A stretch of 10,734 nt of DNA, taken from Lachnospiraceae bacterium UBA3772. GTDB lineage: Bacteria > Bacillota > Clostridia > Lachnospirales > Lachnospiraceae. Positions 2,371-4,219 of the stretch are shown here, in pieces. The stretch's first letter is position 1. Every line of letters starts with the position of its first letter. The stretch is taken from the NCBI GenBank assembly GCA_002371025.1, contig DFFQ01000125.1, positions 1 through 10,734 of the forward strand, read 5' to 3'. The position numbers and the translations under genes were made by a program. The notes beneath the pieces are model-generated. The model searched no databases. It saw only the letters and a list, made by a program, of their open reading frames with translations, and was not told the DNA's origin.

Positions 2371-2456
2371 TTTTTACATTTGCGTCTATTTTTTTTGTCC
2401 GTACGTCGATTATTTGTCTTCGCAACTTTTTTTCCGAGATTAATCTATTTTAAGAA

Positions 2457-2466
2457 TGTATTATAT
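2457..2466 (+). promoter_or_regulatory. Possible -10 element for the tRNA-like RNA
   Basis: TATTAT at 2459-2464, directly preceded by TG, is the best -10 candidate upstream of the RNA gene. I see no convincing -35 at the right distance. Initiation here would give a 5' leader of about 45-50 nt before the acceptor stem. Confidence 0.3.
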
Positions 2467-2519: not shown

Positions 2520-2638
2520 GGGGAGATAGCTCAAGTGGTAGAGCAACGAAAAAAAAGGTGTAATGACTGTTACACTAACAGCAATTGATCACAAGATTAA
2601 GGTTTAGTTTGTTGAAGGTTCAAGCCCTTCTCTCCCCA
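2520..2638 (+). ncRNA. Y-RNA-like non-coding RNA with tRNA-like acceptor, D and T arms
   Basis: The acceptor GGGGAGA (2520-2526) pairs perfectly with TCTCCCC (2631-2637). TA fills tRNA positions 8-9. The D arm is GCTC (2529-2532), loop AAGTGGTA with the GG pair, and GAGC (2541-2544). The T arm is GAAGG (2614-2618), loop TTCAAGC, and CCTTC (2626-2630). A2638 is the discriminator; CCA is not encoded. A 68-nt insert (2546-2613) replaces the 22 nt of anticodon arm plus variable loop. In it AACGAA (2545-2550) pairs with TTTGTT (2608-2613), enclosing eight As and two hairpins: GTGTAA/TTACAC (2558-2563/2570-2575) and TTGATC/GATTAA (2585-2590/2595-2600). No translatable anticodon is visible. It lies 120 nt upstream of a Ro60-like gene on the same strand, as YrlA-type Y RNAs lie beside rsr. 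The ACGAA/TTTG stem recalls the Ro-binding helix of Y RNAs; that link is inference. Confidence 0.82.
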
Positions 2639-2643
2639 CTAAT

Positions 2644-2720
2644 GGGATGCTAACAGCAATTATTTTCTACTTCACATAGAAAAATGCGTCCTGATACCTT
2701 TCTGGATTTGAAAGTGTATC
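2644..2720 (+). promoter_or_regulatory. Structured leader with two abutting stem-loops before the DUF2828 gene
   Basis: Stem I pairs GGGATGC (2644-2650) with GCGTCCT (2686-2692) and encloses the hairpin TTTTCTA/TAGAAAA (2663-2669/2677-2683). Stem II starts at the next base: GATACCTTTC (2693-2702) pairs with GAAAG (2710-2714) and GTATC (2716-2720), with T2715 bulged. No long T run follows directly, so it is a weak terminator at best; TTTATTTT lies five bases on. It may be a 5' UTR control element, a second small RNA, or a processing signal. Confidence 0.5.
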
Positions 2721-2758
2721 AACAGTTTATTTTGGAAAGGTTAAAAAGGTAAGAAAAG

Positions 2759-4219
2759 ATGAATTTTATAGATGCATTAAAGAATGAAGGAAGAAAGACA
2801 TTTACAGAGAATGGTGCTAGTGCATATAACACTTCAGGCAACGCCTGCGTTGATCTTTTTGGTTCAATAGGTTCTCTTAGAAATAGAAATGAATCTGAGA
2901 TCGAGAGTTTATTTGTTGAAGCTTTTAAGGAAGATAAGTTACTGGCAACAAAGATGCTTTTTTATGCTAGAGATATAAGAGGCGGTCTTGGAGAAAGAAG
3001 AGTTTTCAGAGTACTTATCAAGTATCTTGCTAATAATCATAAGGAGGCGATCATTCCAAATCTTGATCTGATAGGAGTATTTGGTCGCTATGATGATCTC
3101 TATTGTCTTATAGACACACCTGTAGAAGAAGAGATGTGGGCTGTAATGAAGACACAGCTTGAAGAGGATATTGCAAATTATAAAGAGAAAAATGCCATTT
3201 CCATGCTTGCTAAGTGGATCAAGACTCCTGATGCAAGCAGCCAGAGAACAAGAACTCTTGGAATAAAGACTGCAATTAAGCTGGGATATTCTGTATATGA
3301 TTTTAAGCGTATCCTTAGAAAACTCCGTAAGCATATTGGAATAGTTGAAACATATATGTCTTTGGGCCAGTGGGATAAGATCAAATATTCCGCCGTACCA
3401 AGCCGAGCTATGATGATATATAGAGATGCATTTCTTAGACATGACGAGGAAGGATTCTCTGATTTTATCCAAAAGGCTGTAAAGGGAGAGGAAAAGATCA
3501 ACTCTTCTACATTGTATCCTTATGACATAGTTGAAAAGATCCTTTATAAGAAAGGATATGATGATACACTTGAAGCTCAGTGGAGACAGCTTCCAGATTA
3601 TGTAGAAAATGGAACTAATGCCATAGTTATGGCAGATGTTTCTGGTTCTATGACATGTGCAAATGGAAGACCGCTTGCTTCTTCAATAGGACTTGCAATG
3701 TATTTTGCCGAGAGAAATGTTGGCGCATATCACAATATGTTTATGACATTTTCTGCATCCCCTTCAATCGTAGAACTTAAGGGAGAAAAGCTTAATCAAA
3801 AGGTTAATTTCCTAAAAAAGGTTAGTTGGGGAATGAATACAAACCTTGAAGCCGCATTTAAGTGTATCCTTACAGTTGCAAAGAATAATCACGTCCCAGC
3901 AAAAGAAATGGTAAAGTCGATCATTGTTGTTTCAGATATGGAAATTGATTATTGTGTTTCAAACGACTGGAGTTTCTATGACCACATCAGAAATAGATAC
4001 GAGGAAGCAGGATATAGTATCCCTAATATAGTTTTCTGGAATGTGAATTCTAGAAATGATATATTCCATGTCGATTCAAAGAGAAAGGGTGTTCAGCTTT
4101 GTTCTGGCCAGAGTGCCTCAACATTTAAGACACTTATGAATTCCATTGGAATGACTCCGGAAGAAATGATGCTTTCCGTTTTAAATTCAGAAAGATATAA
4201 AGAAATAACAGTATCTTAA
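2759..4219 (+). CDS. Ro60-like vWA-domain protein, DUF2828 family
   Basis: This 486-aa soluble protein has an alpha-helical N-terminal part (about 10-280) and a C-terminal von Willebrand A domain (about 285-470). DUF2828-type landmarks, recalled from the family, are the TENGA start region, ARDIRGGLGERRVFR (70-84), LGQWDKIKYSAVPSRAM (202-218), FLRHDEEGF (225-233), WGMNT (357-361) and VVSDMEID (390-397). The MIDAS metal site looks complete: D293, S295 and S297 in DVSGSM, T361, and D393. DUF2828 shares the helical-repeat plus vWA layout with TROVE proteins (Ro60/Rsr), which bind Y RNAs and misfolded RNAs, but I do not see the classical TROVE signatures. The start is backed by AAAAAGG at 2743-2749, nine bases upstream. 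The tRNA-like RNA upstream, with no strong terminator between, suggests an RNA partner. RNA binding is inferred from context, not shown by sequence alone. Confidence 0.85.
   Translation: MNFIDALKNEGRKTFTENGASAYNTSGNACVDLFGSIGSLRNRNESEIESLFVEAFKEDKLLATKMLFYARDIRGGLGERRVFRVLIKYLANNHKEAIIPNLDLIGVFGRYDDLYCLIDTPVEEEMWAVMKTQLEEDIANYKEKNAISMLAKWIKTPDASSQRTRTLGIKTAIKLGYSVYDFKRILRKLRKHIGIVETYMSLGQWDKIKYSAVPSRAMMIYRDAFLRHDEEGFSDFIQKAVKGEEKINSSTLYPYDIVEKILYKKGYDDTLEAQWRQLPDYVENGTNAIVMADVSGSMTCANGRPLASSIGLAMYFAERNVGAYHNMFMTFSASPSIVELKGEKLNQKVNFLKKVSWGMNTNLEAAFKCILTVAKNNHVPAKEMVKSIIVVSDMEIDYCVSNDWSFYDHIRNRYEEAGYSIPNIVFWNVNSRNDIFHVDSKRKGVQLCSGQSASTFKTLMNSIGMTPEEMMLSVLNSERYKEITVS

Follow-up and report, generated by a model that had tools for sequence, protein, structure and literature searches.

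A tRNA-like RNA and a second short RNA beside a DUF2828 gene are predicted partners in a Ro60/Y-RNA-type particle

The contig DFFQ01000125.1 of Lachnospiraceae bacterium UBA3772 (assembly GCA_002371025.1), whose 10,734 nucleotides are referred to here as the window, contains two short RNAs directly upstream of a gene for a DUF2828 protein. Our analysis suggests that the two RNAs and the protein probably form a particle of the Ro60/Y-RNA type, where a helix of the form N6-UG / N6'-YNRCAGCA would anchor the RNAs on the helical ring of the protein. Ro60 takes care of RNA in animals and in some bacteria, and Y RNAs have so far been tied to TROVE proteins. A previous interpretation of the locus from its sequence alone had described the first RNA and the DUF2828 gene as possibly Ro60-Y RNA-like, and this view is supported by the results below, the protein-RNA pairing being a prediction. 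The second RNA and a promoter-like element upstream of both RNAs (2420-2464) were absent from that sequence-only reading.

The first RNA (2520-2638, plus strand) is covered end to end by the Rfam tRNA model RF00005 with a score of 44.3 bits (E 6.2e-7; gathering score 29), which bears out the proposed tRNA-like frame of an acceptor stem (7/7 pairs), a D arm, and a T arm with a folded insert in place of the anticodon arm. In the RF00005 alignment, what is left of the anticodon arm is two basal pairs with 59 bases between them, and within this insert is a hairpin (2558-2575) followed by UAACAGCAA, rather than the anticodon arm of a functional tRNA. The 3' end does not encode CCA. ARAGORN called no tRNA anywhere in the window, a tmRNA was found in the window by neither ARAGORN nor Rfam, and YrlA (RF02553) is not among the nine Rfam matches of the window at E <= 5, its gathering score of 69 not being reached. 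The tRNA-like domain of tmRNA likewise combines acceptor, D, and T arms and has no normal anticodon arm. As anticipated by the sequence-only reading, the stems covary. In an alignment of 25 tRNA-like RNAs (A2), for which sequences had to have a paired motif hairpin and each acceptor was set by the best complement within 60 positions, 98.5% of cells are paired and 18 of 22 pairs changed on both sides. The covariation score is 0.828, as compared to 0.215 for shuffles and 0.10-0.16 when partners were slid. All seven acceptor column pairs changed on both sides, with 100% of cells paired. This selection does not extend to the D pairs or to the outer T pairs.

The hairpin in the insert carries a motif that was first recognized by reading tRNA-like copies from the loci of relatives. 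It consists of a 6-bp helix in which strand A is followed by UG and strand B by YNRCAGCA. The same motif in swapped strand order (B-A) recurs in short RNAs, one of which is the second RNA of the window (2644-2693), starting ~5 bases past the end of the tRNA-like RNA. The motif is a helix and not only a sequence word. When 208 same-strand cores were picked by their sequence only, a complementary hexamer followed by UG was present at the right place in 115, as compared to a mean of 12.6 and a maximum of 24 when B strands were swapped between loci (1000 swaps). On the opposite strand, one of 20 cores was paired. The features of the locus are collected in Table 1.

Table 1. Positions of the RNA, protein, and promoter-like features within the window.
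Feature	Position	Strand	Remarks
Promoter-like element TCGCAACTTTTTTTCCGAGATTAAT	2420-2444	+	Predicted promoter of RNA operon
-10-like TATTAT	2459-2464	+	Part of promoter-like element
tRNA-like Y-like RNA	2520-2638	+	Normal tRNA topology, anticodon arm replaced; RF00005, model R1, covariation
Acceptor stem, 5' strand	2520-2526	+	Pairs with 2631-2637
D arm	2529-2544	+	Stem 2529-2532 / 2541-2544; RF00005, covariation, fold
Motif hairpin, order A-B	2558-2584	+	Predicted protein-binding site
Strand A GTGTAA	2558-2563	+	Then UG 2564-2565, then loop
Strand B TTACAC	2570-2575	+	Then tail TAACAGCAA 2576-2584
T arm	2614-2630	+	RF00005, fold
Acceptor stem, 3' strand	2631-2637	+	Then A2638 in discriminator position
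Second, stand-alone Y-like RNA, order B-A	2644-2693	+	Motif scan, fold
Second RNA, strand B GGATGC	2645-2650	+	Then TAACAGCAA
Second RNA, strand A GCGTCC	2686-2691	+	Then TG 2692-2693
DUF2828 + DUF7788 (vWA) protein	2759-4219	+	486 aa, intact, ATG start; predicted Ro60-like fold
MIDAS codon stretch	3635-3937	+	D293 at 3635, S295, S297, T361 at 3839, D393 at 3935

The DUF2828 open reading frame starts 120 nt after the tRNA-like RNA on the same strand, in agreement with the earlier description. The encoded protein matches PF11443 (DUF2828) with 139 bits and PF25043 (DUF7788, the vWA part) with 161 bits, and it is covered by PHROG 850 ('RNA-binding protein') with 463 bits. It was previously placed outside of the classical TROVE family, which stands insofar as no TROVE (PF05731) match was found for the protein at E <= 0.1. 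The two families are, however, not unrelated: a profile-profile comparison aligned 246 columns of DUF2828 and TROVE with an E of 1e-7 (for that single comparison). Judged by these profiles, DUF2828 lies outside of Pfam TROVE and appears to be distantly homologous to it, and the window protein is 10% identical to Ro60. As the earlier reading had anticipated, the predicted structure is Ro60-like over most of its length, with a helical-repeat ring closed by a vWA domain in the predicted model. The MIDAS, which had been read as intact, consists of what we take to be its five residues (D293, S295, S297, T361, and D393), and these are invariant in 17 aligned sequences (A1) and in 65 aligned sequences (A3). 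The genome assembly, which is 86.7% complete, has no TROVE match, and the tRNA-like RNA has the Ro60-like DUF2828 gene in place of the TROVE neighbor of YrlA. Among 200 sampled genomes of one bacterial family, 22 have a DUF2828 protein, as do 682 of 50,697 phage records. One relative (P0025, 575 aa) also has PF01912, presumably the eIF-6 family, in its precomputed domain list.

The pairing of a tRNA-like RNA with a DUF2828 gene recurs in many gut bacteria and phages. Of the first nine relatives, eight carry a tRNA-like RNA upstream of the gene and on its strand, with an insert that is long, while L008 has a pair of B-A motif RNAs in its place; among the nine, L003 and L004 are near copies of the window, with 96-97% protein identity. 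A strict motif scan of 103 DUF2828 loci (the window, L003-L011, L040-L052, and L064-L143; some near-duplicates, some cut short) returned 160 matches on the strand of the gene, in 71 loci, and nine matches on the opposite strand, in eight loci. Similar RNAs are thus found beside other DUF2828 genes, so that two of the three refuting conditions named in the sequence-only reading (no such RNA beside other DUF2828 genes, no covariation in the stems) do not hold. Three dinucleotide shuffles of the same loci gave four, seven, and three matches. For an independent set of 33 whole-genome DUF2828 loci, which had no part in defining the motif, the count was 23 on the strand of the gene and one on the other strand. 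The motif was found on neither strand in 22 tRNA loci, nine YrlA-search loci, and six TROVE loci.

The covariance model R1, applied to 54 further loci (47 of them DUF2828 loci), gave ten matches of at least 50 bits in eight loci, all with DUF2828. None of the six TROVE loci reached this score, and L063, a locus of the HEAT-TerD type discussed below, peaked at 37.2 bits. R1 was also run over 200 genomes of one family, scoring no more than 18 first-look candidates in each. The top place was the window RNA (106.3 bits, being itself part of the model), while 73-nt matches, taken as ordinary tRNAs, reached at most 49.4 bits. Eleven places in eight genomes scored at least 50 bits, namely the window, G173 (two), G131, G122, G047, G118 (three), G033, and G016. 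Seven of these genomes have one or more such RNAs no farther than ~1 kb from a DUF2828 gene and on its strand, and G118 has one further copy ~8 kb from DUF2828.

Two circular permutations of the tRNA-like RNA were observed. The tRNA-like RNA of the window and those of its kin run from the acceptor through D arm, strand A, strand B, and T arm back to the acceptor, and 37 of the 39 distinct A-B hairpins in the 103 loci are followed downstream by a T arm. Phage loci, among them Felix-O1-like and Bacillus ones, have the parts arranged as strand B, T arm, closed acceptor, D arm, and strand A; six permuted RNAs with the DUF2828 motif pass the strict filter, in DUF2828 loci other than the window. Both permutations keep one cyclic order, and the opening point alone differs. 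According to passages in two papers, YrlA can be superposed on tRNA in circularly permuted form (PMC11472068), and the stem that binds Rsr is made up of the 5' and 3' ends of YrlA (PMC8394870). The permuted order in DUF2828 loci is that of YrlA. The likeness of the window RNA to a bacterial Y RNA holds for the tRNA-like domain, with its acceptor, D, and T arms, but not for the topology: the window RNA has the normal tRNA order and ends in the acceptor, whereas YrlA is permuted and ends in the Ro-binding stem. Judged by eye, Y RNAs next to the TROVE genes of L057 and L161 are also ordered like YrlA, and their basal stem is a different one. The system shares with bacterial Ro60/Rsr-YrlA a protein with a helical ring and a vWA domain (here predicted), an adjacent RNA with a tRNA-like domain, and a link to rtcB.

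The promoter-like element occurs in the form TTCGCAACTTTTTTTCCGNGATAA upstream of several RNA loci. In 14 of 19 distinct loose matches among the loci examined, TANNAT follows the start of CGNAAC by exactly 38 nt; the remaining five comprise three with CGTAAC (L050, L090, and L092), one on the opposite strand (L021), and G131 with TAGTAA. The 200 genomes contain ten element sites in eight genomes, and a reversed control gave none. Six sites precede DUF2828 loci and two precede HEAT-TerD loci (G000:C69 and G002:C34). The genome of the window has exactly two sites at up to three mismatches, one in the window and one at the HEAT-TerD Y-RNA locus on contig C69. A further site (L204, G092:C127:1797) precedes a lone B-A motif RNA, which is on a different contig from the DUF2828 gene (C140) and is possibly a Y-like RNA supplied in trans. 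The last site (L206, G179:C22:288345) precedes a tRNA-like stretch, by eye permuted in the YrlA order, and a Band_7/SPFH gene, in a genome with no DUF2828 or rtcB match.

The gene rtcB stands beside DUF2828, on the same strand and with less than 1 kb between the matched domains, in eight of 34 DUF2828 genomes (G051, G070, G089, G112, G309, G330, G382, and G431), and, counting matches at any position, rtcB is found in 20 of the 34. At the HEAT-TerD locus G002:C34, rtcB (PF01139, 186.7 bits) is the first gene after the element. This locus (L205, L195) has in succession the element, rtcB, two tRNA-like RNAs (one clearly of YrlA order), and the HEAT-TerD gene, an arrangement that is a counterpart of the Salmonella rsr-yrl-rtc operon. 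On balance, and with some reserve, we favor the view that bacteria have at least two more lineages of Ro60/Y-RNA biology, DUF2828 (helical ring and vWA) and HEAT-TerD (helical part with TerD replacing the vWA), each with its own RNA-binding motif. In Lachnospiraceae and relatives, one dedicated promoter common to both lineages and to rtcB would make up an RNA-repair regulon, and the body of the DUF2828 RNA would exist in both circular permutations, with an unchanged cyclic order and the opening at either the acceptor or the protein-binding helix.

By analogy with two known systems, the RNA and DUF2828 particle would likely help to handle damaged RNA. These are the Salmonella rsr-yrlBA-rtcBA operon, described in part of one report as induced upon tRNA cleavage (PMC7790460), and the Deinococcus complex of Rsr, Y RNA, and PNPase, described in part of another (PMC8394870). 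On this basis, a single precursor transcript may start at the promoter-like element, and tRNA-type cutting at the tRNA-like ends would release both RNAs. The motif helix would dock both RNAs on the outer face of the ring, like Y RNAs on Ro60. The tRNA body, which is without the loop cut by anticodon nucleases, could recruit enzymes that recognize tRNA, be it a nuclease (PNPase, for example) or enzymes of repair and modification, or it could serve as a decoy, and the ring may take up damaged or misfolded RNA for repair or decay alongside RtcB. In this way the DUF2828 family would be assigned an RNA partner and its binding motif, along with a predicted fold and a likely pathway. Moreover, the role of bacterial Y RNAs becomes testable in compact systems with two RNAs per operon, one with and one without a tRNA body, and the common promoter-like element may report a damage signal.

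Several results weigh against a particle of this kind. The DUF2828 gene of the window has no adjacent rtcB, the rtcB matches of the genome being on contigs C41 and C82, and a sigma-70 scan found no plus-strand promoter in 2180-2780. The motif and acceptor helices in alignment A2 are partly selected because of the rules by which it was built. The strict motif is missing in 32 of the 103 and 10 of the 33 DUF2828 loci; some of these contigs are cut upstream and some loci have variants (UAG or AG for UG) that the strict rule rejects. With 18 candidates scored per genome, an R1 match of at least 50 bits is missing from 15 of the 22 genomes of the family that have DUF2828; eight of the fifteen have the motif on the strand of the gene (seven B-A and one A-B) and seven have none by the strict rule. 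Lastly, one of the strongest R1 matches (98.5 bits; L165/L193, C13:42090-42205) is in G131, a genome without a DUF2828 match, where it directly precedes isochorismatase-family, PRPP-synthetase-like, and NAMPT/NAPRT genes, which resemble nicotinamide adenine dinucleotide salvage.

Three other explanations were weighed. The RNAs could be mainly decoys or sponges, in which a ring-held tRNA body without an anticodon loop absorbs tRNA-targeting nucleases or enzymes and the particle has no role in repair or decay. We regard this as rather unlikely. None of the copies in A2 has a normal anticodon arm by eye (a few keep some pairs at its base), several phage DUF2828 genes sit within tRNA clusters, and a competitive-inhibitor role for YrlA was raised in a passage by Hughes et al. 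(PMC7790460). However, 102 of the 120 distinct B-A hits have no internal T arm, and RNAs of this kind would be superfluous for a pure tRNA decoy; the rtcB neighbors also point to repair. It is improbable that the tRNA-like element is a cis-acting leader of the DUF2828 mRNA, T-box-like or a processing signal, instead of a separate partner RNA. Its upstream, co-directional position would suit a leader, and several relatives also have a copy just before the gene, but tRNA-like copies lie downstream of the gene in ten loci (L064, L069, L073, L074, L076, L077, L112, L117, L126, and L127), L007 has four A-B hairpins, G131 has its copy without DUF2828, and the motif recurs in stand-alone and permuted RNAs. 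Least credible by a wide margin is a chance placement of degenerate or intron-bearing tRNA genes, left by phages or islands, since the acceptor stems are fully paired despite their changed letters, the insert motif is conserved and strand-biased, and the 73-nt R1 matches stop far short of the window score, even though DUF2828 is common in phages, several of them tRNA-rich, and the tRNA model still scores on the RNA.

That phage DUF2828 proteins resemble Ro is already stated in public annotation. Gp53 of mycobacteriophage LeBron and its relatives ('Ro-like RNA binding protein', PHROG 850) belong to the same family as the window protein, with 39% identity to LeBron gp53 over the full length. These labels cover the protein alone, and a Y RNA is named in none of 13 phage feature tables. 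A passage in one phage report mentions that the Ro-like gene is absent from phage Underpass and does not mention an RNA partner (PMC12714340), and part of a jumbo-phage survey covers TROVE proteins, which work in cells with a tRNA-like partner (PMC7824862). Four papers found to mention DUF2828 are, judged by title, all plant or crop studies; our search of the literature, which did not extend to the main Y-RNA papers, returned no account of the tRNA-like RNA, the motif, or the element. A YrlA-like RNA lies just downstream of the LeBron gene, with a score of 39.8 bits that is under the gathering score of 69, and by eye it fits the permuted order with a variant motif. It is one of three unannotated motif-like RNAs seen by eye downstream of gene 53 (L040 5464-5711), where the strict motif scan finds none.

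Three other phage loci have RNAs near DUF2828. In Listeria phage P100, rtcB is 1.3 kb downstream of DUF2828, and a match to ROOL RNA (L041 2459-3010; 86 bits, E 7e-16, gathering score 99.1) lies ~1 kb upstream of the DUF2828 gene amid tRNA genes. In Synechococcus phage B23, a 'tRNA-Undet-???' is annotated downstream of the DUF2828 gene (L046 5869-5978); its R1 score of 84.7 bits suggests a Y-like RNA of the DUF2828 type. In Bacillus phage vB_BcoS-136, an unannotated, normal-order tRNA-like stretch (1979-2050) lies inside a B-A motif RNA (L045 1941-2064).
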